From an uncultured bacterium (lineage in GTDB: Bacteria; Electryoneota; Electryoneia; Electryoneales; Electryoneaceae), in contig CAJVXH010000018.1 of assembly GCA_913009835.1 (NCBI GenBank), positions 1 through 32,908 of the forward strand: a stretch of DNA of 32,908 bases. The letters run 5' to 3'. Positions 11,910-30,465 of this stretch are shown piece by piece. Position 1 is the first letter of the stretch. Every line of letters begins with the position of its first letter. The notes under the pieces were generated by a model. It ran no database searches and had not been told where the DNA came from. It saw only the letters and a program-made list of their open reading frames with translations. The translations under genes were made by a program, and so were the position numbers.

Positions 11910-13355
11910 ATGAATATTCGATCAGTATTACGCACGATCGGCTTCATTCTCCTCTTCGTCGCGGCGTCAATGTTGCTATCAGTCGGGGTCGCCTTGATTT
12001 ATGGGGACGGAGACGCCTCCGGCATTCTAATCGCCACGTTAGTAACTGCCGTCGTTGCAATTACATCGATTTACCTCAACAGGCAGCATCGCGAGCTTGA
12101 CGTCAAGGAAGGCTTCGCCATTGTCACATTCAGCTGGATATTGATGAGTGTGGCAGGAATGTTACCCTACTTGTTCACAGGTTCAATTCCTGATCTAACC
12201 AACGCGTTTTTTGAATCAGCCAGCGGATTTACGACGACAGGTGCCACTATCCTCGCGGATGTTGAATCTCTACCGCATGGTGTGCTTTTCTGGAGAAGTT
12301 TTACTCACTGGATCGGAGGGATGGGGATCGTTGTGCTCTCCATCGCCATTCTACCGTTTCTGGGTGTGGGTGGCATGCAACTGTTTAAGACTGAAGCCCC
12401 AGGCCCGACGACTGATAAATTGACGCCGCGTATCCGTGATACTGCAAGCCTGCTCTGGGGAATCTACGCCGGATTGACACTGCTCGAGACGTTACTCCTG
12501 ATGTTCGGCGGTATGGACTGGTTTGATGCCGTCACGCATTCATTTGCTACACTGGCGACCGGTGGATTCTCTACGAAAAACACATCTATCGCCTACTTCC
12601 AGTCACCGTATATTGAGTGGGTGGTGATTATCTTCATGTACCTTGCTGGTATCAATTTCACTCTCCATTATAATGCACTGCGTGGCAAACTCAACAGCTA
12701 CTGGAAAAGTAGTGAATTCCGTTTCTTTTCTGGAAGTATGCTATTCGTTGTAGCAATTATTGTCATTGTTCGTTTGATGAGGGAAGATACAGGGTTCATG
12801 GCTGTCATTCGAGAATCGATGTTTTCAGCCCTCTCAGTGGGGACAGCTACGGGTTTCGCAAACTCTGATTTCGAGCTGTGGCCACTGGTCACTCAAATAC
12901 TGCTGGTGAGCTTGATGGTGATGGGCGGTATGGCGGGTTCAACCGCTGGAGGTATGAAATCCATGCGGGTCCATGTACTCATGCAACAAGCCCGCCTTGA
13001 CTTGTATCATTTAATTCATCCTCATGCCATATACAAGATTCGCCAGGATAACAAGGTGATTCCTGATGATGTGGTGCACAACATCTTGGTCTTCTTCTTC
13101 GTCTACATTCTGATGATGACGATTAGCACAGTCCTGCTTGCGTTCCTGGATATTGATCCTGTGACCGGGATTACTGCCAGCATCGCTTGCCTTAGTAATG
13201 TCGGGCCGGGCCTCGGTCGGGTCGGACCATTGGATAACTACTCACAATTACCAAATGCCGCCAAATGGATTCTGACTTTCATGATGATCGCCGGACGGTT
13301 GGAATTTTTCACCGTGCTCGTGCTGTTTACGAGGAAATACTGGGAGAAATCATGA
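11910..13355 (+). CDS. trkH: Trk potassium channel subunit TrkH, first copy
   Basis: Inner-membrane K+ translocating subunit of 481 residues built from four M1-P-M2 repeats. The four pore-loop segments are visible: SASGFTTTGATI, SFATLATGGFST, ALSVGTATGFAN and CLSNVGPGLG, each with the conserved filter glycine. HWIGGMGIVVLSIAILP, a TrkH/KtrB hallmark, follows the first loop. Length is typical for TrkH. It lies 3 bases after trkA. Its stop overlaps (ATGA) the start of a 31-codon ORF that leads into a second trkH. Confidence 0.95.
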   Translation: MNIRSVLRTIGFILLFVAASMLLSVGVALIYGDGDASGILIATLVTAVVAITSIYLNRQHRELDVKEGFAIVTFSWILMSVAGMLPYLFTGSIPDLTNAFFESASGFTTTGATILADVESLPHGVLFWRSFTHWIGGMGIVVLSIAILPFLGVGGMQLFKTEAPGPTTDKLTPRIRDTASLLWGIYAGLTLLETLLLMFGGMDWFDAVTHSFATLATGGFSTKNTSIAYFQSPYIEWVVIIFMYLAGINFTLHYNALRGKLNSYWKSSEFRFFSGSMLFVVAIIVIVRLMREDTGFMAVIRESMFSALSVGTATGFANSDFELWPLVTQILLVSLMVMGGMAGSTAGGMKSMRVHVLMQQARLDLYHLIHPHAIYKIRQDNKVIPDDVVHNILVFFFVYILMMTISTVLLAFLDIDPVTGITASIACLSNVGPGLGRVGPLDNYSQLPNAAKWILTFMMIAGRLEFFTVLVLFTRKYWEKS

Positions 13356-13447
13356 ACGCAACACCTATGTCCATTATCGTAAATTACATGACAAAACAGA
13401 TGGACTATTATTTGTATCGATCCCACTGGGTATCGGTGAGCAGATGA
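13352..13447 (+). CDS. 31-residue ORF bridging the two trkH genes
   Basis: An ORF reading MNATPMSIIVNYMTKQMDYY and ending LYRSHWVSVSR. Its ATG overlaps the first trkH stop (ATGA at 13352-13355), and its own TGA overlaps the second trkH start (ATGA at 13444-13447). GGGAG lies about 6 bases before its ATG, a better ribosome site than that of the second trkH. It shows no membrane span or known domain. It may be a leader that couples translation of the two channels, a small subunit, or simply a remnant of spacer that happens to be open; 31 codons is too short to decide. Confidence 0.4.
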   Translation: MNATPMSIIVNYMTKQMDYYLYRSHWVSVSR

Positions 13448-14883
13448 ATATTCGTTCCACGCTGAGAACCATTGGCTTTATCCTCGTCTTCCTGGCAAGC
13501 TCAATGCTGCTCTCCGTCATCATCGCCTTGATATATGACGAAGGAGACTGGCTGGGAATTCTTCTCGCCGCCCTCACGACCGCTGTCGCTGGAATCGCGG
13601 GCATCTTCCTTAATCGGCAGCAACGTGACCTGAACCTCAAGGAAGGTTTCGCCGTCGTAACCTTCGGATGGCTGGCCATAAGCCTCTTCGGGATGCTGCC
13701 CTTCCTGTTCACCGGTGCGATTCCATCAATCACAGACGCCTTCTTCGAATCCGCCTCAGGCTTCACAACAACCGGCGCGTCTATTCTCACCGACATCGAA
13801 TCAATTCCGCACGGTGTCCTCTTCTGGAGATCCTTCACTCATTGGATCGGAGGAATGGGAATAATCGTCTTCTCGATTGCGATATTACCCTACCTCGGCG
13901 TTGGTGGAATGCAGATGTTCAAGGCAGAATCACCTGGCCCAACCGCGGACAAACTATCCCCCCGCATCCGTCGCACGGCGGAAATTCTGTGGGTTGTTTA
14001 CGTTTTCATAACTGCAGTTGAAGTCGGCCTGTTAATGCTCGGCGGCATGGATTGGTTCGACTCCATCTGCCACGCCTTCGGCACAATGGCCACCGGCGGA
14101 TTCTCCACCAAGAACGATTCCATCGCCCACTACGACAGCGCCTACATCCAATGGGTGATAACGATCTTCATGTACATCGCGGGAGTTTCGTTCAGCCTGC
14201 ACTACTTCGCGTTGCGTGGGAATGTGAAACGGTACTGGGAGAGTGTCGAATTCAGGTTCTTCAGTACCGTAATGTTCGTGAGTATTATCATCTTAGCCAT
14301 ATTCCAGCTCGTTGCAGGAACCGGTGTTGAAGAGTCAATCCGAAACGCCGCCTTTGTCACCATGTCCATCGGCACAACCACCGGCTTTAGCACGGCCAAT
14401 TTTGAGCTGTGGCATGTGTTTACCCAATTCATTCTCGTCGGGTTGATGTTCATGGGTGGAATGGCCGGATCAACCGGCGGTGGAGTGAAAGCCGTACGGG
14501 TCATGATTCTGCTGCAACAGGCACGCATCGAAATACGCAAGCTGATTCATCCGAACACGGTCTATGTGGTCAGATTAGGGCGCAAAGCTCTACCTCAGAA
14601 CGTTGTCCAGAATGTCCTGGCCTTCTTCCTGCTATACATACTCCTGCTCGGCTTCGGATCGCTGATAATGGCGTTACTGGGCTTGGATCACGTATCCGCA
14701 ATAACAAGTACCGTCGCCTGTCTGTCCAACATCGGCCCGGGACTGGGCGACGTCGGCCCTACCGACAACTACGCTTTCATACCCGCGGTCGGTAAATGGG
14801 TGCTGAGCTTCCTGATGATTGTCGGACGTCTGGAGTTCTTCACCGTCCTCGTCCTCCTGACGAAGACTTATTGGGAACGATGA
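13444..14883 (+). CDS. trkH: Trk potassium channel subunit TrkH, second copy
   Basis: A paralogue of the preceding gene, 479 residues and collinear with it throughout (both begin MNIRS-LRTIGFIL and share HWIGGMGI, APGP/SPGPT-DKL-PRIR and GGMDWFD). Pore-loop segments are SASGFTTTGASI, AFGTMATGGFST, TMSIGTTTGFST and CLSNIGPGLG, so all four filter glycines are kept. The third loop is TTTGFST here against TATGFAN in the first copy. The two proteins are clearly homologous but well diverged, so the duplication is old. A single TrkA serves both. Last gene of the operon; no strong terminator directly follows it. Confidence 0.94.
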   Translation: MNIRSTLRTIGFILVFLASSMLLSVIIALIYDEGDWLGILLAALTTAVAGIAGIFLNRQQRDLNLKEGFAVVTFGWLAISLFGMLPFLFTGAIPSITDAFFESASGFTTTGASILTDIESIPHGVLFWRSFTHWIGGMGIIVFSIAILPYLGVGGMQMFKAESPGPTADKLSPRIRRTAEILWVVYVFITAVEVGLLMLGGMDWFDSICHAFGTMATGGFSTKNDSIAHYDSAYIQWVITIFMYIAGVSFSLHYFALRGNVKRYWESVEFRFFSTVMFVSIIILAIFQLVAGTGVEESIRNAAFVTMSIGTTTGFSTANFELWHVFTQFILVGLMFMGGMAGSTGGGVKAVRVMILLQQARIEIRKLIHPNTVYVVRLGRKALPQNVVQNVLAFFLLYILLLGFGSLIMALLGLDHVSAITSTVACLSNIGPGLGDVGPTDNYAFIPAVGKWVLSFLMIVGRLEFFTVLVLLTKTYWER

Positions 14884-15325: not shown

Positions 15326-16114
15326 TCATCCCAGCCGGAGCCCTTGAAGACGAGATTCGTGGATGAAGATGTAATTCACTGAGGTTTCACCCTCTTTGCG
15401 TGGAGTAAACTTTCCATCCGCAAACACATAGTCGCTATATCCCACAGATTCGAAATAACGCTTGATCTGATTCGCATCTGTGCCGTCTTCATCAGGATGT
15501 GAACCCAGCTCGATCAACCAGGAAGGGAGCGACTTCTCCACTACCAGCTTCGCCCCATTCACTACCGCCAGTTCATGACCTTCCACATCACACTTGATGA
15601 ATGATGGCGCAGCGAGACCATGATATCGTGTGACAAGAGTATCAACACTAAAAGTTCGCACTTCAAAGCTGTGTGGGCTCTTCCTTTGGTGACGATTATC
15701 CAATGATGCCCGGTAATAGTTTACCCGACCTCGATAATCAGGTACAGAAATGGTTGCTTTCCCATCTTGATCTGAGACTGCTGCGTGGAGCGTTTCGATA
15801 TTCCCAATACCCAGGGAAACCACGCAATATTTCAGGATGTCATAGGTCCGAGGGACTGGTTCAATAGCCAGTACCTTGCCATTCTTTCCTGTAGATTCTG
15901 CAAGAAACCGCGTCCATAGACCGTAATTAGCCCCAATGTCAATAACTGAATCACCTTCCACAACAAGTTGAGGGATCACACTGAGATCTTGATCTGCATC
16001 GCTGCTAATATTACGTAATTTACGAAGATAGTATTTGCGTTGCAGAATGAATGTTAAGCGGTAAGGAAGGCGATCAATCGCGCGTACAAGCAGAGGTTTC
16101 AGACATGTAAGCAA
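15326..16114 (-). CDS. FkbM-family SAM-dependent methyltransferase
   Basis: Predicted O-methyltransferase of 262 residues, probably acting on a sugar or other small molecule. SAM-binding motif I is SVIDIGANYGLWTRFLAEST, followed by VLAIEPVPRTYDILK. The FkbM core then shows SVDTL, FIKCDVEGHELAVVNGA and SLPSWLIELGSH, in the family's usual order. The start is TTG at 16114, supported by GGAG five bases upstream; no ATG gives the full N-terminus. It stands alone between two terminators. FkbM proteins are common in polysaccharide loci, and this one lies 6 kb from one on the other strand, so a link is possible but unproven. Confidence 0.85.
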   Translation of the reverse strand: MLTCLKPLLVRAIDRLPYRLTFILQRKYYLRKLRNISSDADQDLSVIPQLVVEGDSVIDIGANYGLWTRFLAESTGKNGKVLAIEPVPRTYDILKYCVVSLGIGNIETLHAAVSDQDGKATISVPDYRGRVNYYRASLDNRHQRKSPHSFEVRTFSVDTLVTRYHGLAAPSFIKCDVEGHELAVVNGAKLVVEKSLPSWLIELGSHPDEDGTDANQIKRYFESVGYSDYVFADGKFTPRKEGETSVNYIFIHESRLQGLRLG

Positions 16115-16245
16115 TTTTTCTCCAGAATTTAGGGTTTTATAACCGTTTCCTGATTAAAACGAAATTCAACTGAGAATATCGATAAAATAATGATGGACAA
16201 TCAACCATGAGGGACGTTTGTGAGCCCATAAAGATCATAAATAAA

Positions 16246-16269
16246 TCGGGGACACCGAAGTGTCCCCGA
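16246..16269 (-). terminator. groESL terminator with UUCG tetraloop
   Basis: On the minus strand TCGGGGACAC and GTGTCCCCGA pair over 10 bp around TTCG, the extra-stable tetraloop, followed by a T-rich run (TTTATTTATG). It lies about 70 bases past the groEL stop. Confidence 0.85.
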
Positions 16270-16307
16270 CAGGTATGACAACCAACTGTTGATTTCGCTA
16301 ATGAACC

Positions 16308-16329
16308 GCCACGGACTGAAGTCCGTGGC
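16308..16329. repeat. Short perfect hairpin just after groEL
   Basis: GCCACGGAC and GTCCGTGGC pair over 9 bp around TGAA. It starts 8 bases past the groEL stop and has no T-run, so it is more likely an mRNA-end stabiliser or a dispersed palindromic repeat than a terminator. I recall similar 'cacgg...ccgtg' palindromes as repeats in environmental bacteria, but this cannot be checked here. Confidence 0.5.
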
Positions 16330-16337
16330 AAGCAGGC

Positions 16338-17975
16338 TTAGTACATGCCGCCGCCCATACCACCACCTGGCATTGCCGGCATGGCAGGACCAGAGTCTTC
16401 CTTGGCTTCGTAGACAACAGCTTCGCTCATCACCAGAACGCCAGCAACAGAGGCCGCATTTTCCAGCGCGGAACGAGTCACCTTGGTCGGGTCGATGATT
16501 CCAGCTTTCATCATGTCTTCGTATTCGCCGATGAGTGCGTTGAATCCGAAAGAACCCTTACCTTCACGGACTTTCTGCACCACAACAGCACCCTCGAAAC
16601 CAGCGTTGCCAACGATCTGACGCAGCGGCTCTTCGATAGCGCGAAGAACGATCATCCGGCCTGTGTCTTCGTCACCGTCATAGCTGATCTCAGATAAGGC
16701 CGTCTGCGCACGAACAAGCGCTACACCACCGCCTGCGACAATGCCTTCTTCGACAGCGGCACGGGTAGCATGAAGAGCGTCTTCGACACGGGCTTTCTTC
16801 TCTTTCATCTCGATTTCAGTGGCCGCACCAATCTCCAGCACTGCCACACCACCAGCGAGTTTCGCCAAACGTTCCTGGAGCTTCTCACGGTCGTAATCGG
16901 AAGTCGTGGACTCGATCTGCTTCTTGATCTGCTCGATTCGGGCCTGAATATCTTCAGTCTTGCCAGCACCTTCGACGACCGTGGTGTTGTCCTTGGTCAT
17001 CACGATGCGCTTGGCTGAACCCAGATCATCAATCTGTGTGTTTTCAAGCTTGAGACCGGCATCTTCACTGATGACACGAGCACCGGTGAGGATAGCGATA
17101 TCTTCGAGCATTGCCTTGCGACGGTCGCCGAAGCCCGGAGCCTTCACGGCTGCGATCTTCAAGGTGCCACGGATCTTGTTGACAACGAGAGTGGCCAGTG
17201 CTTCGCCTTCAACATCTTCAGCGATGATCAATAAGGCCTTGCCCATCTGGGCAACCTTCTCGAGCACCGGAAGAAGATCCTTCATGGTGCCGACCTTCTT
17301 GTCGTAGATCAGAATCATCGGATCTTCGTGCACGGCTTCCATGTTGTCTGGATCAGTCACGAAATAGGGGCTGAGGTAGCCACGGTCAAACTGCATACCT
17401 TCAACGATTTCCAGACTGGTCTCGATGGACTTGGCTTCTTCAACGGTGATAACGCCGTCGTTGCCAACCTTCTCCATCGCATCGGCGATCAAATCACCGA
17501 TCACATGATCGTTGTTCGCAGAGATTGAACCAACCTGAGCGATACGATCCTTGCTGCCACCAACCTCAACGCTCTGCTTGTGCAGATCTGCAACAACAAC
17601 CTTGATCGCCTTCTCGATGCCACGCTTGAGCATCAGCGGATTGGCACCAGCGACCACGTTGCGCAGACCTTCACTGAGGATAGCCTGGGCTAGAACGGTT
17701 GCGGTTGTGGTTCCGTCACCAGCGATGTCGGAAGTTTTGGAAGCGACCTCACGCACCATCTGGGCGCCCATGTTCTCCACTGGATCTTCGAGTTCGATTT
17801 CCTTGGCGACTGAGACGCCGTCCTTGGTAATCGTCGGAGCGCCGAACTTCTTTTCCAGGATAACGTTGCGTCCACGCGGGCCGAGGGTAACTTTTACTGC
17901 CTTGGCGAGAGTATCAACACCCGCCTTAAGACCGTTGCGAGCCTCCAGATCGAAGGCTATGATCTTATGAGCCAT
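16338..17975 (-). CDS. groEL: Chaperonin GroEL (Hsp60)
   Basis: ATP-driven folding chamber subunit of 545 residues, normal length. The ATP-site motif GDGTTT is at 86-91, exactly as in E. coli GroEL. The N-terminus reads [35 protein letters not shown] follows, and the C-terminal tail ends in GGGMGGGMY, a short form of the Gly-Gly-Met tail. The ATG at 17975 has AGGAGA 7 bases upstream; an in-frame TTG two codons earlier lies between that site and the ATG and is not needed. It is downstream of groES by 48 bases and shares its CIRCE control. Only one copy is seen in the window. Confidence 0.98.
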
Positions 17976-18459: not shown

Positions 18460-18496
18460 TTCTGTTAGCACTCCTGTGTGACGAGTGCTAACAGAA
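18460..18496. promoter_or_regulatory. CIRCE operator for HrcA, upstream of groES
   Basis: TTAGCACTC (18465-18473), a 9-base spacer and GAGTGCTAA (18483-18491) match the CIRCE consensus with no mismatch. The symmetry extends by five more pairs on each side, to a 14-bp perfect inverted repeat (18460-18473 with 18483-18496). HrcA encoded at 29318-30370 is the expected ligand. The leader from CIRCE to groES is long; a candidate -10 (GATAAT on the minus strand) lies just downstream, but the promoter is not certain. Confidence 0.95.
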
Positions 18497-18700
18497 GGAC
18501 AGTGTAACTAGAAGCAACCCCATATTCAACAGTCATCAACATCAGTAGAGACACACTTGAGAGGACCGTTGCTGGAAGCCCGACACGAGAAGACAGGCCC
18601 GTGCTCGCTCGTCAAGCGCGGAATATCTCAAGGTCAAAACAGAGATCCTTCTCGCCTACGGCGTCAGGATGACTAATCCAGGAATAATCCCCTCTACCCC
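18497..18700. other. Intergenic stretch upstream of the TonB-receptor-like gene, with repeat fragment
   Basis: Together with the groES leader (18324-18459), this forms a gap of about 380 bases without a gene. At 18641-18673, AGAGATCCTTCTCGCCTACG followed by GCGTCAGGATGAC resembles one arm of a dispersed 'GATCCTTC...TCAGGATGAC' repeat type found between genes in many environmental bacteria. No RNA gene was recognised, and I see no clear plus-strand promoter. Confidence 0.4.
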
Positions 18701-20929
18701 ATGCATCTGGAAGCGGGAAAATGTATATTCACCGCAATGCTACCTCTGCCGCACAACTTTCAAACAGAATCGCGCCCGAATCAGCGCAGTAATACTCCGG
18801 TATCCGGATCGGATAGGGTTGCTGTTGTCTGGACACAATTCAGTGCCCTCCTGCTGCTGATGATGCTGCTTACTCTGCTTTCTACACCATCCGCCTTCGC
18901 AAGTTCCGAGCTCTTGGAGCATCAACGAAACGTTCGTATTCAGCTTTCAGATGAACAGCCCCCACTCTCCTCCGCTCATCAGAACATTGATACAACAATT
19001 GCCAGCCCTACGATCTTATCTACTGAATCAACAGATAGCTCAGCTTCGATGAATAACAGTGAAGTGGACTCGTTGATGGACAGCATGTTCATCAATGAAT
19101 CAGATAGCCTTGCGATGAGTGATTCCATTGAGGTACTTCCCCCACCTCTGCCGCCGATCGTACCTCCAGATTCCGCTAATCCGGTACCATTTTCCCCGAC
19201 ATCTTTCAGGCTGAACAATCGCGAGTTCCATCGCCACGGGTTCAAGGATGCCGTGGAAATGCTCGCTGTTGCGCCAGGCCTGTATCCCCGTCAGACTCAG
19301 TTGTACGGTCAACCCGCCTACCTGATCCCACCTGGCGGGTCAGCACGGGACTTGACCGTTTGGTTCAGGGGCCGCCCATACAATGATCCGATCACTGGCA
19401 CGACCAACTTCACCTCCTTTGAAGCGGAAGAGGTTCAGATCGCTGAATATGAGGCAGCATCTGTTCGAGGGATTCCGACCAGTGGTTATTTGATGCGGCT
19501 GATCCAGCCTTACGCCTATTCGACCAGGCCAGTGACCAAAATCGTGTACCGTCAGGGCTGGTATGGGCTGGGACGTGCTGATTGGCGGATCGCCCACCAG
19601 GTCTCCAACGAAGTGGCCTATCACATAGGCGTTAACATCACAGAGTTCCAGGGCCGCTTTAACAATACTGCTGCAAATACTTCCAATTTGCGAATAGGTG
19701 GGCGACGCACTCTCCGTGGCATTGGACAACTCTCGATTCAATGGATGGAGTTCCGTGATCAATGGTATCGTCCCTTCGATGCTGGTAGATCAGGTATCCG
19801 GCGCAACGACATTGATGTCAGCTTGAGCAGCGGTGTTCCCGGAGATTCTTGCCTGTATCGTGAACTCGGCCTATGGTACGTTCGAAACGAGAGTAGCTAT
19901 CGTTACGGCAATGAAGACGGCAACCGTCTCGGTATGAAATTCGAACAAGGATTCGGCGACCTGAACGGACATGATCTGCTGGCAAGAGTGGATGTAGAAC
20001 GTATAGCAGCGCGTTTCACCCGTCGCCCGACTGAGATCGATCCACATGCTGCCAGAACTACTACCGGACTCAGCCTGACTGACAGGGTGACGTTTGGAAA
20101 GATTGACCTGCAGGGAAGTCTGCGCGCCGAATACAGCACTCTAAAGGTATCGCCTGACACCGTAGAATTCGATGACAACCTGATGGCCGGAGGGTCGGTG
20201 TCGGCATCCTATTCTCTCACTGATTCGCTGAGGCTGTTCGGGCTGGCCTCATCGAGTTGGCGCTACCCGGGGTTGGATGAGACAACTGGCTACTGGTCGG
20301 TCCGTACACCAGACCGCTGGATGGATGTTCTACCTGTTCCGGATTATACCACCTTCTATCATGGTAACCCCGCGCTGAAACCAGTCAAGACGGACTATGT
20401 TGGTGCTGGTGTAGCCATGAGCTGGCCAGAGTACCGACAGATACACGTTCAGAGTGGAATACGTCAATGGCGCGATCAGATCCTGCCATATGCAATGACA
20501 CCGAATGTCTGGACCCGCGACAACTATGAAAATTACAACTCGCTGGAATCCACAGTCTACGCTTGGACTCCCCTCTATGGTCCGGTGAGCGCGGCTGCAT
20601 CCTTCACCTACGCTGAACCTATCACACCTGCGGCACCGGTGCCAGAAATTTTCGGATGGGCAAGCCTGCGATTCATGGATCACTATTACTGGAATCAACT
20701 ACGGATCAGGGCGACGGTAACGGCTTACTTCTGGGATGAATACCAGACTGCCACCTACTATCAGGAATCAGCCTGGACATACGACGCCATCCTGAATTTC
20801 AAGGTGTTCAACTTCGAAGCGTATTATGGAACACGAAATGTCATGGGGGCACCCTACCAGTTCATCCCTTCCTTCCCGAACATGCATAGGGATGAGATCT
20901 GGGGAGTTAGGTGGGTGTTGTTCGACTAG
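18701..20929 (+). CDS. TonB-dependent-receptor-like outer-membrane protein (plug plus beta-barrel)
   Basis: Probable outer-membrane transporter. A hydrophobic signal segment (ALLLLMMLLTLLSTPSAFA) lies about 50 residues in, so the true start may be downstream of 18701; no clear ribosome site decides it. A low-complexity Ser/Asp-rich region and a proline stretch (LPPPLPPIVPP) come next. The plug-like domain has FKDAVEMLAVAPGLYPRQ, LTVWFRGRPYNDPITGTTNF and EVQIAEYEAASVRGIPTSGY, matching the 'vDGrpl.DP.tG' pattern of TonB receptors. The remaining 500 or so residues alternate as amphipathic strands rich in Tyr, Trp and Arg, as in barrels. The C-terminus is VRWVLFD, not a final aromatic residue. 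The barrel is shorter than in most siderophore receptors. Substrate unknown. Confidence 0.65.
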   Translation: MHLEAGKCIFTAMLPLPHNFQTESRPNQRSNTPVSGSDRVAVVWTQFSALLLLMMLLTLLSTPSAFASSELLEHQRNVRIQLSDEQPPLSSAHQNIDTTIASPTILSTESTDSSASMNNSEVDSLMDSMFINESDSLAMSDSIEVLPPPLPPIVPPDSANPVPFSPTSFRLNNREFHRHGFKDAVEMLAVAPGLYPRQTQLYGQPAYLIPPGGSARDLTVWFRGRPYNDPITGTTNFTSFEAEEVQIAEYEAASVRGIPTSGYLMRLIQPYAYSTRPVTKIVYRQGWYGLGRADWRIAHQVSNEVAYHIGVNITEFQGRFNNTAANTSNLRIGGRRTLRGIGQLSIQWMEFRDQWYRPFDAGRSGIRRNDIDVSLSSGVPGDSCLYRELGLWYVRNESSYRYGNEDGNRLGMKFEQGFGDLNGHDLLARVDVERIAARFTRRPTEIDPHAARTTTGLSLTDRVTFGKIDLQGSLRAEYSTLKVSPDTVEFDDNLMAGGSVSASYSLTDSLRLFGLASSSWRYPGLDETTGYWSVRTPDRWMDVLPVPDYTTFYHGNPALKPVKTDYVGAGVAMSWPEYRQIHVQSGIRQWRDQILPYAMTPNVWTRDNYENYNSLESTVYAWTPLYGPVSAAASFTYAEPITPAAPVPEIFGWASLRFMDHYYWNQLRIRATVTAYFWDEYQTATYYQESAWTYDAILNFKVFNFEAYYGTRNVMGAPYQFIPSFPNMHRDEIWGVRWVLFD

Positions 20930-20991: not shown

Positions 20992-22389
20992 CTACTCCTC
21001 TTCCCCGTTCAAACGCGCCAGATTGACGCTCCATTTAGCAGATTTCCGATCACCATGCTTTTCTACAAATCCGAGTTTATTCAATTGAGACAAATAACCA
21101 CGCGCAGTGGAATTCACTACGCCCAGCGTCTCAGCTAACTCAGATGTCTTGAAGAGCAGTCTTTCTTTCATCAGCATGAAAGAAATCAAACGCTCAGGCG
21201 CGGAAGATCCGATTCGAAATCCAGCTCGCTCGAGAATACCAACTGCAGTGTGGATTGTATCCTGATCACGGGAATTCAGTGGTAACCAGTCCGACTCGTC
21301 AAAACGTAAATGACTCAGCTGTATCTCACGCGGCTTCATTAATAGTGCACGATCAAGGACTGTGCGCAACTCTGATAGATTCCCCGGCCACGAATAACCT
21401 TCAAGACGATGCATAGCATCTGGATGTACCTTTGGCTTCTGGATGCCGTACTTCCGTGACAACTGGTCGAGGTAATGATTTGTCAGTACAGGAATATCCT
21501 CACGACGCTGTCTGAGGGATGGTAAGTCAATCTGTAAGATAGCCACTTCAAGAAACAGATCGTGACGGAATAACTGCTGGCGTGCGAGTAAATTCAAGTC
21601 ACAGCTCGATGATACGAGGATCCGTGGTGGAGAATCAGCACTACTATCTATGAGATTGGGCTTGTATCTCTCACGGACCTGCTCAACAACCAATGGCTGC
21701 AAAGGCATAGGCAACTGGTCAATATCAGAGAGATAGATGGTACCAAAGGGACAAAACATCTCTTTGAGGATCATCTGGTCAGAAGGGTGACCGTGTTCAG
21801 CAACCATCTCGCGGATCTGATTTCTGAAACTCTCATGGGACAAGTAATTGCATGAAATAGGTAAATACGGTCTGTTAGACCTATTACCGGCTTCATGGAT
21901 AACTCTTGCGACCGTGGCTTTTCCAGAGCCCACCTCGCCACAAATCAACGTAGGCACACTGCTGAAAGCAGCAACCTGTACCATGCTCACGACTTCACGC
22001 CATATCCTCGATTCGCCGATCAGCGACCTTATTCCATGCTCCAGCCGCGGTCTGGTATCTCGAGGATATTCTGGAACGAACGCCTCACGTTCTCTGAGAA
22101 ATTGCTGGAAAGGAGACCTGATTTTACCATCAGCTCGATAACCTGCAGAGGACTCATGTAACCTGCCCTGTAGAGATGTGCGCCAACGCATATACTCATC
22201 AAGCTGAGTGACGACATATGCGAATTCTTCTGGAAGCTTTCGCTGGGAATTCTCGGAGCCTACCCACCATTCGCAGGCTTTGTTAATAACACCTGCATCT
22301 ATTTCAGGTAGTTTCAGCAATTCCGGGATGGCTTCCTGAGAAAGCTGAATTCGAGAAGTGTATTTGGAAGACGAACTGTTCTTGTCCAT
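20992..22389 (-). CDS. Degenerate AAA+ regulator of the sigma-54-activator fold with C-terminal winged-helix-like domain
   Basis: A 465-residue protein. Residues 1-120 are an unrecognised, mostly helical domain. An AAA+ module of bacterial enhancer-binding type follows: Walker A GEVGSGKA (151-158), Walker-B-like GTIYLSDIDQL (216-226), FRHDLFLEVAILQIDLPSLRQRREDIP (274-300 overall) and GYSWPGNLSELR (331-342). Several functional residues are changed: no GAFTGA loop is present, Walker B has SD where DE is usual, the arginine-finger position (FRxDLYyR) is Glu, and sensor II Arg in GNVREL is Ser. Instead of a Fis-type helix-turn-helix the C-terminus (about 404-457) looks like a winged helix (SELAETLGVVNSTARGYLSQ, then a wing). 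It is therefore probably a sigma-54-independent DNA-binding regulator with little ATPase activity. Target unknown. Confidence 0.7.
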   Translation of the reverse strand: MDKNSSSSKYTSRIQLSQEAIPELLKLPEIDAGVINKACEWWVGSENSQRKLPEEFAYVVTQLDEYMRWRTSLQGRLHESSAGYRADGKIRSPFQQFLREREAFVPEYPRDTRPRLEHGIRSLIGESRIWREVVSMVQVAAFSSVPTLICGEVGSGKATVARVIHEAGNRSNRPYLPISCNYLSHESFRNQIREMVAEHGHPSDQMILKEMFCPFGTIYLSDIDQLPMPLQPLVVEQVRERYKPNLIDSSADSPPRILVSSSCDLNLLARQQLFRHDLFLEVAILQIDLPSLRQRREDIPVLTNHYLDQLSRKYGIQKPKVHPDAMHRLEGYSWPGNLSELRTVLDRALLMKPREIQLSHLRFDESDWLPLNSRDQDTIHTAVGILERAGFRIGSSAPERLISFMLMKERLLFKTSELAETLGVVNSTARGYLSQLNKLGFVEKHGDRKSAKWSVNLARLNGEEE

Positions 22390-22830: not shown

Positions 22831-23709
22831 TCAGAACATCTCTGTTCGCAACGTACCTATTACAGTACTATTTAGCTCAACCACATCACCAGGCTTCAGC
22901 GGCCCCACGCCGGCAGGAGTTCCCATTGAAATCATATCACCACATTCCAAACCCACTGACTCACTCAAGTCTTGGACGATTGTCTCAGCATTCCACAGCC
23001 ATAAGGAGGGTTCGCCATTCTGGACAATCTCACCATTCAGACTCGTAGTGTAGCGGAACTCAGACAAGGGAATACCGCTATCAATGAATCTCAAGTATGG
23101 ACCAACTGGAGCGAATCCGATCCGTCCCTTGGCGCGAAACCAGGGTTTACCCTTTTCCTTGGCTTGCTGCTGCTGAGCGCGATCGGTAATGTCATTCAAT
23201 AGAGTAACTGCGACAATTGCAGAACGCGCCTGCACAAGGGATATTGGGCCGCGTAAATCTCGCCCCACTACCAATGCGAGCTCGCCTTCATAATCGACAC
23301 GATCACTCTCAGAGGGAATGGCGACTTTCTGTTCGTTTGCCGCCAGGCATCCACGCGGTTTCATGAAGAAGAGTGGTTTACCGGGAACCTTGTTACCTAA
23401 CTCGCTGGCGTGAGCGGCATAGTTGCGCCCAACGCAGAATAGTGATCCGCCGGTATCTGGCGTTGCCCAGGTCCAATCCCTGGTGTTGACTGAATGTGCC
23501 GATGACGTACGCTCTTCCAGCCATCTCAGGGCAGCAGGTATATCAGTTGAGGAGAATAGATCTTTGATGGTTGGATGTGAGGAATTTCGTATGTAAAAGG
23601 GAATATCTGTCGTTCCATGAATCAGATCGGCGACTTGATAGTGAAGACCATTGTCATCGCAAAGCAGCATCTCTGGCATGTTATCGGTGGACATCATGGT
23701 CAGTCGCAT
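22831..23709 (-). CDS. Fumarylacetoacetate hydrolase (FAH) family enzyme
   Basis: Metal-dependent C-C bond hydrolase, isomerase or decarboxylase acting on a 2-oxo or beta-diketo acid. The 292 residues include the family core: FCVGRNYAAHASELG, PLFFMKPRGCL, DYEGELALVVGRDLRG with the two metal-binding Glu residues, LLNDITDRAQQ with the metal-binding Asp, RAKGRIGFAPVGPYL, and GDMISMGTPAGVGPLKPGDV. The start ATG is preceded by GGGAGT at good distance. It lies 62 bases after rsmD on the same strand and could be the last gene of that operon. Exact substrate cannot be told; family members include fumarylpyruvate hydrolase, HpcE-like enzymes and oxaloacetate decarboxylase. Confidence 0.9.
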   Translation of the reverse strand: MRLTMMSTDNMPEMLLCDDNGLHYQVADLIHGTTDIPFYIRNSSHPTIKDLFSSTDIPAALRWLEERTSSAHSVNTRDWTWATPDTGGSLFCVGRNYAAHASELGNKVPGKPLFFMKPRGCLAANEQKVAIPSESDRVDYEGELALVVGRDLRGPISLVQARSAIVAVTLLNDITDRAQQQQAKEKGKPWFRAKGRIGFAPVGPYLRFIDSGIPLSEFRYTTSLNGEIVQNGEPSLWLWNAETIVQDLSESVGLECGDMISMGTPAGVGPLKPGDVVELNSTVIGTLRTEMF

Positions 23710-29317: not shown

Positions 29318-30370
29318 TCAGTTTTCGACACGAAGTTGAATCGCCTCAGCGGCAAATTTGACCAATGATGAGAGGTGAGCGTAGTTCATACGTGTCGGCC
29401 CGATTACACCGAGCGTGCCTTCGGTGTCACCTATGCTGTAACTGGCCGACACCACGCTGCATCCCTCTAAAATAGAATTCCCGATCTCCTTGCCGATGCT
29501 GATCCGGACACCTTCCTCAGTCTCATGCTGACCAGCATGCAACAAATGAAGGATAACATCTCGATCCTCAAGGATTTCGATTACTCCCCTGGTCTGATCC
29601 AGATCTGCAAAATCGGGTTGATTAAAAACGCTACTCGTACCATCCAGATGAATCTCACCAACTCGATCCTCGGTAAAGATGAGATCCGCCGAATCCACTA
29701 CCAACTTCAACAGCGGACGTCCGCTGTCCAGTGTGCCCACCATCCTCTGGGCGATACTCCTGCGAACCTCACCCAGTTTCAACCCGGTAAGGCGTTCGTT
29801 GAGGATGCGGGTCGCAGCATCTATCTCTGAATCCTTCAAGGTCGAAACGATGTTAAGCATGATGTTGCGCACGAAACCGTTACGGATTGTCAGGATGACC
29901 AGCAAGCGACCGGAAGCAATCCGGATCATATCGATTTGATGCAGGATACCCTCGGTGAGTTTCGGCGTCAAGACCACTGAGATCAGAGCGCTGGTACGTG
30001 CCAGAGCGTCACTGGTGCGATCCAGAACGTCACTCATCCCGCCAATCGCCACCTCTTCCAGAGCCTGCATGATGGTACGCTGGTCAGCTCGGCGGACATC
30101 CACCCGCTCCATCATCTCATCAACGTACAGACCATAGCCCATATGAGTAGGAACCCGTCCTGCAGAGGTGTGCGGTTGCTTGAGCAGCCCCATCTCCTCC
30201 AGATCAACCATGACATTGCGGATTGTCGCTGCCGACAAATCCATGTTGAGACGCTTGCTCAGAGTGCGTGAACCCACCGCCTCAGCGGTGACCAGGTACT
30301 CGTGGATCAGAGCGGTGAAAACCGCCTTCTCCCTCTCACTCATGCTTCTTGCGAGACCTGATGATTTCAT
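29318..30370 (-). CDS. hrcA: Heat-inducible transcription repressor HrcA
   Basis: Represses chaperone genes by binding CIRCE, with GroEL helping to keep it active. The N-terminal winged helix is clear: MSEREKAVFTALIHEYLVTA, EAVGSRTLSKRLNMDLSAAT, IRNVMVDLEEMGLLKQPHTS, then AGRVPTHMGYGLYVDEMM. The GAF-like dimerisation body follows, with the C-terminal VIGPTRMNYAHLSSLVKFAA signature. I chose ATG 30370 (MKSSGLARS, 350 residues); MSEREK at 30340 is also possible, and the open frame runs back to 30439. No CIRCE lies in front of hrcA itself, so its own control may differ from that of groESL in this window. Confidence 0.94.
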   Translation of the reverse strand: MKSSGLARSMSEREKAVFTALIHEYLVTAEAVGSRTLSKRLNMDLSAATIRNVMVDLEEMGLLKQPHTSAGRVPTHMGYGLYVDEMMERVDVRRADQRTIMQALEEVAIGGMSDVLDRTSDALARTSALISVVLTPKLTEGILHQIDMIRIASGRLLVILTIRNGFVRNIMLNIVSTLKDSEIDAATRILNERLTGLKLGEVRRSIAQRMVGTLDSGRPLLKLVVDSADLIFTEDRVGEIHLDGTSSVFNQPDFADLDQTRGVIEILEDRDVILHLLHAGQHETEEGVRISIGKEIGNSILEGCSVVSASYSIGDTEGTLGVIGPTRMNYAHLSSLVKFAAEAIQLRVEN

Positions 30371-30465
30371 GAACCCACAAACTCTAAGGTTAACGTGATC
30401 CGGCTTGAAAACGAGTGCCGGAGGGTATGCCCATAACATTTACGTCATGGATAATCCGCCCAAAT

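Follow-up and report, generated by a model that had tools for sequence, protein, structure and literature searches.

A relative of sigma-54 activators with a degenerate ATPase site that may persist as a non-remodelling, DNA-binding regulator

What becomes of a sigma-54 activator when the residues by which it activates are gone and the gene is still there? The question is raised by a regulator gene located at positions 20992..22389 (minus strand) of a 32,908 nt stretch of DNA from an uncultured bacterium; this whole analysed stretch is called the window below, and the genome that it belongs to is G000. The ORF starts with ATG and encodes a protein of 465 aa, with an ortholog in genome G001. The original prediction, made from the sequence alone, was that of an AAA+ regulator of the sigma-54-activator type that had lost its activating parts and whose fold seemed to be reused in a nucleotide-sensing or purely structural DNA-binding regulator.

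The window protein consists, in order, of a helical N-terminal domain, a degenerate sigma-54-activator AAA+ core with its lid and a C-terminal winged helix. The N-terminal domain (residues 1-118; 22036..22389, minus strand, as are all features of this gene) has a conserved W41-W42 pair and gave no match in searches against Pfam and the PDB. The core is recognized by the Pfam profile Sigma54_activat (E-value 6.8e-16; 58.8 bits versus a cutoff of 20.2) and the lid (residues 291-365; 21295..21519) by AAA_lid_14 (8.5e-19; 67.6 bits versus a cutoff of 27), and the C-terminus (residues 396-460; 21010..21204) has a FaeA/IclR-like winged-helix match above the cutoff (E-value 5.3e-05). The top sequence matches in the PDB are NtrC1, FlrC, VpsR, ZraR, NtrX and FleQ. 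Judged by its sequence, the window protein is a descendant of sigma-54 activators. An AlphaFold2 model built from an alignment of 41 sequences (mean pLDDT 83.8, superseding an earlier run with 3 sequences and a pLDDT of 51) retains the AAA+ fold with good confidence. Foldseek matched this model to NtrX, NtrC1, FleQ, PspF and VpsR, and the target-normalised TM-score was about 0.7-0.8 against the single AAA+ domains of PspF, NtrC1, NtrX and FleQ; a preserved fold, as originally proposed, is thus what the model predicts. Both the Pfam match and the model agree with the claim of a C-terminus that is winged-helix-like rather than Fis-like.

To describe the motifs we used a comparison set of 37 sigma-54 activators from G000 and its relatives; excluded from it were the window protein, the two homologues close to it and an independently degenerate activator (L086). 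At 19 of the 43 positions conserved at ≥90% in the other activators the window protein has a replacement. Walker A (GEVGSGKA, residues 151-158; 21916..21939) retains its lysine as K157. The region of the expected GAFTGA L1 loop (residues 183-215; 21745..21843) lacks the motif: the column of PspF T86, a threonine in 37/37 activators, holds G, and, as far as the alignment tells, the sigma-54 contact mediated by GAFTGA is lost. Conservation within the core is at its lowest in this region (36% identity to G001), which is also modelled with low confidence, the low-confidence part of the core (about residues 190-210) coinciding with the expected position of L1. The degenerate Walker B (GTIYLSDI, residues 216-223; 21721..21744) has S221 and D222 in the columns of PspF D107 (D in 37/37) and E108 (E in 36/37). 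In the arginine-finger segment (FRHDLFLEVA, residues 274-283; 21541..21570) R275 and D277, the equivalents of PspF R162 and D164, are retained and E281 replaces the arginine of the R168 column (R in 37/37), which turns RxDxxxR into RxDxxxE. The sensor II segment (WPGNLSELR, residues 334-342; 21364..21390) carries S339 in a column that is R in 37/37. The glutamate-switch asparagine (PspF N64) and the sensor I asparagine are replaced by S179 and S262, and conserved core residues beside Walker B have eroded too (R236E and others). The original prediction had, then, correctly read the intact Walker A, the missing GAFTGA, the SD in place of DE and the serine of sensor II. Its statement that the arginine finger is a glutamate stands for the R168 position and falls for the finger proper, as the genuine R-finger of PspF is R162 (PMC3419264).

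Single replacements at such positions nearly abolish the ATPase of PspF: the wild-type rate of 39.5 per min drops to 0.23 in D107A, 0.11 in R168E and 1.5 in N64Q (PMC3419264). This argues strongly for the absence of ATPase activity, and the window protein most likely does not hydrolyse ATP. It is very unlikely to remodel sigma-54 polymerase, in support of the inability that had been proposed for it. The sigma-54 system itself is still in use, given that rpoN is present in the G000 genome along with about 14 other activator matches. Sigma-54 −24/−12 matches are not in excess in the window (15 versus 15.7 expected), and none of them stands out.

The original prediction had counted the winged helix among a set of coordinated losses, and this part of it does not hold. 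A profile built from the C-terminal domain detected further copies of it, likewise attached to sigma-54 cores, in other families of the phylum (the later profile included sequences already found; an earlier three-sequence profile had already detected G010, G034 and G027 at 7e-7 to 3e-5), and intact winged-helix activators are present in at least four of these other families. The winged-helix activators of the phylum (L075-L084, L087) have the architecture and the C-terminal domain in common with the window protein; unlike it, nearly all of them keep the GAFTGA-type loop, the D-E of Walker B (D-D in one), both arginines and the sensor II Arg. Since activators that are mostly intact carry the winged helix, it is an older state and not a sign of loss. 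Where the full translation of a profile match from outside the phylum was read, it was another kind of protein. In the core tree the winged-helix rows fall on one side of a branch with support of 89/80, where, however, long branches meet, the stem leading to the window protein and G001 being very long (2.89); the placement of the window protein among winged-helix activators therefore leans on gene order and on the C-terminal match.

Altered motifs also occur in other activators. L086 (412-1755, genome G021, another family) is an independently degenerate winged-helix activator without GAFTGA, with Walker A K to R, Walker B S-E, R162 to K and D164 to E; it sits between adenine-deaminase-like and hisS-like genes (identified by eye), the same flanks as in its intact relatives. 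Many activators of this family (L007, L012, L026, L033, L034, L041 and others) have GAFTDA, GAFTSA or GAFTHA for GAFTGA, and their ATPase site is otherwise intact.

How widely is the disarmed form shared? Among the 61 genomes searched, G000 included, only two genomes other than its own match the regulator at E ≤ 1e-40. In the family, whose seven genomes are all draft assemblies, the regulator is recognizable in four (G000, G001, G003 and G005). A scan of named genomes gave distant matches only, of which L015, the one translated, proved to be a response regulator of the ordinary GAFTGA kind. The ortholog in G001, a genome of the same genus, is 53% identical to the window protein and agrees with it in E281, S339, D222 and the missing loop, with A rather than S at 221; 16 of the conserved positions replaced in the window protein are also replaced in G001. 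Chance or sequencing error is thereby excluded. The homologue in G005, of the same family and about 30% identical, also lacks GAFTGA and has D-D in Walker B (E to D), with the equivalents of R162 and R168 and the sensor II Arg retained. In G003 most of the AAA+ core is gone: about residues 191-338 are deleted in frame, and the retained N-terminal domain and Walker A continue in frame to the likewise retained winged helix; this form is seen on one contig and could be strain-specific.

Gene order ties these forms to an intact activator. The convergent neighbour of the regulator gene (18701..20929, plus strand), by eye probably an outer-membrane beta-barrel protein and without a Pfam match, is present in 7/7 family genomes and adjoins the regulator in all four genomes where the latter is recognizable. 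The upstream neighbour (22831..23709, minus strand), a gene of the FAA-hydrolase (FAH) family, is also at the locus in G001 and G005. In G002, G004 and G006 the order is FAH, cheY-like, nfi, GGDEF; G000 and G001 have FAH and the regulator with no cheY-like, nfi or GGDEF gene in between. Orthologs of REC-GGDEF (E ≤ 1e-60) are present in G002, G004, G005 and G006, and none was found at this threshold anywhere in the genomes G000, G001 and G003. In G012 an intact winged-helix activator lies directly after nfi (endonuclease V) and REC-GGDEF, the same order as in G005. A gene fragment 3′ of the GGDEF gene in G006, at a contig end, is where a regulator would be expected; its similarity is not significant, and we did not accept it as a member. 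Elsewhere in the window, positions 11910-13355 and 13444-14883 hold two similar genes in tandem that look, by eye, like TrkH-type potassium transporters. At L018, two secreted proteins encoded side by side (15878-16684 and 16979-17857) have C-terminal domains of the sorting type that are nearly identical (YPNPFNASATVSV...KKVMLVR).

Comparison of the sequences establishes the losses, their conservation, the absence of the neighbours and, as a prediction, the retention of the fold. The reading that we prefer, to which we assign a probability of about 0.6, is that a winged-helix sigma-54 activator has been disarmed stepwise and kept as a non-remodelling DNA-binding regulator. The ancestor would be a phylum-specific activator made of a helical N-terminus, an AAA+ core and a winged helix, in the gene order nfi, REC-GGDEF, activator. 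In the order of steps that we infer, the sigma-54-contacting GAFTGA loop would have been lost first, the state seen in G005, and the Walker B Asp, the second trans arginine and the sensor II Arg next, as in G000 and G001; it is this lineage, presumably without catalysis, whose locus is devoid of the cheY-like, nfi and GGDEF genes. In one sister lineage, that seen in G003, the whole middle of the AAA+ core would have been lost. The winged helix would bind DNA, and the N-terminal domain and the dead AAA+ fold may serve as a scaffold for oligomerisation or ligand binding. The protein would not use ATP hydrolysis for remodelling; it would act at promoters that depend on other sigma factors, presumably sigma-70, most simply as a repressor that blocks or as a class-I-like activator that makes contact. 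A stricter version, which we offer tentatively, sees a series within one family, in which first the loop (G005), then catalysis (G000 and G001) and then the core (G003) went, with the DNA-binding and N-terminal domains still under selection and the dead AAA+ part only a scaffold that could be dropped.

Searches for a DNA target or operator of the regulator found none, and comparison of the regions upstream of the regulator revealed nothing in common beyond chance. Two candidates were considered and rejected. One, a 17/18 palindrome match that both G000 and G003 have upstream of the barrel gene, belongs to a REP-like palindromic repeat, TGCTTGCTCGTCAAGCGCGG (18602-18621 in the window), which occurs at 79 places in G000 (with ≤1 mismatch; 0 in the control) and at 150 places in G003 and is nearly absent from G001 and G005; being a dispersed repeat, it is not an operator. 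On contig 78 of G000 the repeat forms an array with a spacing of about 91 bases. The second candidate, an inverted repeat located between the divergent groES and barrel genes, is a perfect CIRCE element, TTAGCACTC-N9-GAGTGCTAA (18465-18491), also found in G001; the same window has a probable hrcA gene (by eye) at 29318-30439 on the minus strand.

A special case of the preferred reading, rather than its opposite, is a nucleotide sensor, whose Walker A would still bind ATP or ADP and whose oligomeric state and DNA binding would depend on this binding instead of on hydrolysis. The lysine and the GxxGxGK pattern of Walker A are kept in 4/4 family members (G000, G001, G005 and even G003), and precedents exist: PspF D107A has a near-normal Km of 300 µM (PMC3419264), and NtrC of Rhodobacter capsulatus needs binding of ATP and not its hydrolysis (PMC10274813). 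On the other hand, R168E, the very replacement seen at E281, pushes the Km of PspF above 3000 µM (PMC3419264), the sensor II Arg is gone from the window protein, and a Walker A motif by itself does not show that nucleotide is bound. We consider this version somewhat unlikely.

The main rival to a regulator kept for a changed role is plain decay: an activator left without operon partners and without a task, of which the window copy happens not yet to be broken. In G002 and G004 no copy of the regulator was found beside the linked GGDEF gene or the barrel gene, an absence as compatible with a slowly decaying regulator family as with a changed role; the core deletion of G003 shortens the protein; and the regulator evolves somewhat faster than most of its neighbours (53% identity between G000 and G001 versus 60-68%, with one neighbour at 51%). 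Against this, the frames of G000 and G001 are both intact at a pS of 0.80, which is saturated, and a pN of 0.31, whereas neutral drift over this distance would have given stops and a much higher pN. The best-kept parts, moreover, are the lid (61% identical) and the winged helix (62%, the highest in the protein). Saturated pS, low pN and this distribution of identity point to purifying selection since the split of G000 and G001, and the expectation that the losses would be conserved in homologues is met by the G001 ortholog, which shares them under such selection. The original prediction had named homologues with intact motifs around an isolated decaying gene as what would speak against it; homologues with intact motifs do exist, one of them linked by gene order, but the window copy does not look like an isolated decaying one. 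Decay thus appears improbable.

Quite doubtful is a c-di-GMP-dependent regulator in the manner of FleQ or VpsR, with the AAA+ surface as dinucleotide site. The idea draws on the regulator gene lying directly 3′ of a REC-GGDEF diguanylate cyclase gene in G005 and G012 and on VpsR and FleQ being among the structural matches. For the FleQ pocket, which we take to be R144, R185, N186, E330 and R334, R185 is retained, but N186 became V and E330 became H in both the window protein and G001, the R334 column has R in the window protein and S in G001, and R144 is outside the reliably aligned part; with N186 and E330 replaced, we rejected a FleQ-type pocket in the window protein. Also, the genomes that lack the cyclase ortholog are precisely those whose regulator is most degenerate. 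Least probable of all is a non-catalytic subunit that tunes or poisons mixed rings with a paralogous activator: the many paralogous activators in G000, the retained trans residues R275 and D277 and the mutual complementation of cis- and trans-defective PspF subunits (PMC3419264) would allow it, but core residues beside Walker B are eroded, the protein has a winged helix of its own and no cognate partner gene is apparent.

A disarmed regulator of this kind can be set beside several known proteins. The AAA+ domains of PspF, NtrC1, NtrX and FleQ have the same fold as the window protein; GAFTGA and the ATPase site are both present in PspF, NtrC1 and FleQ and both lost from the window protein. The Pfam name 'Sigma-54 interaction domain' and the NtrC-type matches would, indeed, mislabel the regulator gene. 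VpsR of Vibrio cholerae, both a sequence and a structure match to the window protein in its AAA+ core, lacks GAFTGA and regulates sigma-70 promoters (PMC10274813). The solved VpsR binds c-di-GMP (PDB entry title), a difference from the window protein, where the FleQ-type pocket is not retained. The NtrC proteins of R. capsulatus and Caulobacter are GAFTGA-less sigma-54-type activators at sigma-70 promoters (PMC10274813); they differ in having a REC domain and an HTH, and Caulobacter NtrC needs both Walker A and Walker B. Activators of sigma-70 promoters without GAFTGA are therefore already known, with the ATPase site kept in TyrR and needed in Caulobacter NtrC; the present family appears to have given up the ATPase site and yet kept the protein. 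Intermediates survive in related genomes, so one can test directly in which order the parts were lost and what an AAA+ regulator continues to require once it has ceased to remodel polymerase.

The closest parallel is TyrR of E. coli, which ends in a Fis-type helix-turn-helix where the window protein has a winged helix. Walker A, the DE of Walker B, both arginines, N64 and the sensor II Arg are all kept in TyrR; at the eight catalytic positions checked it has K, N, D, E, R, D, R and R, of which the window protein retains only K, R162 and D164. TyrR derives from the sigma-54 activator PhhR by a change of role with loss of the genes of the old one, and its AAA+ core, too, is of the sigma-54-activator type and lacks GAFTGA, a motif retained by the relatives of its lineage (PMC1173090). 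As TyrR keeps all eight positions, the regulator family described here has gone further than the path from PhhR to TyrR. TyrR also offers the model for how it may act, as a regulator that, like TyrR after PhhR, exerts its effect at promoters of other sigma factors through blocking or contact (PMC1173090).
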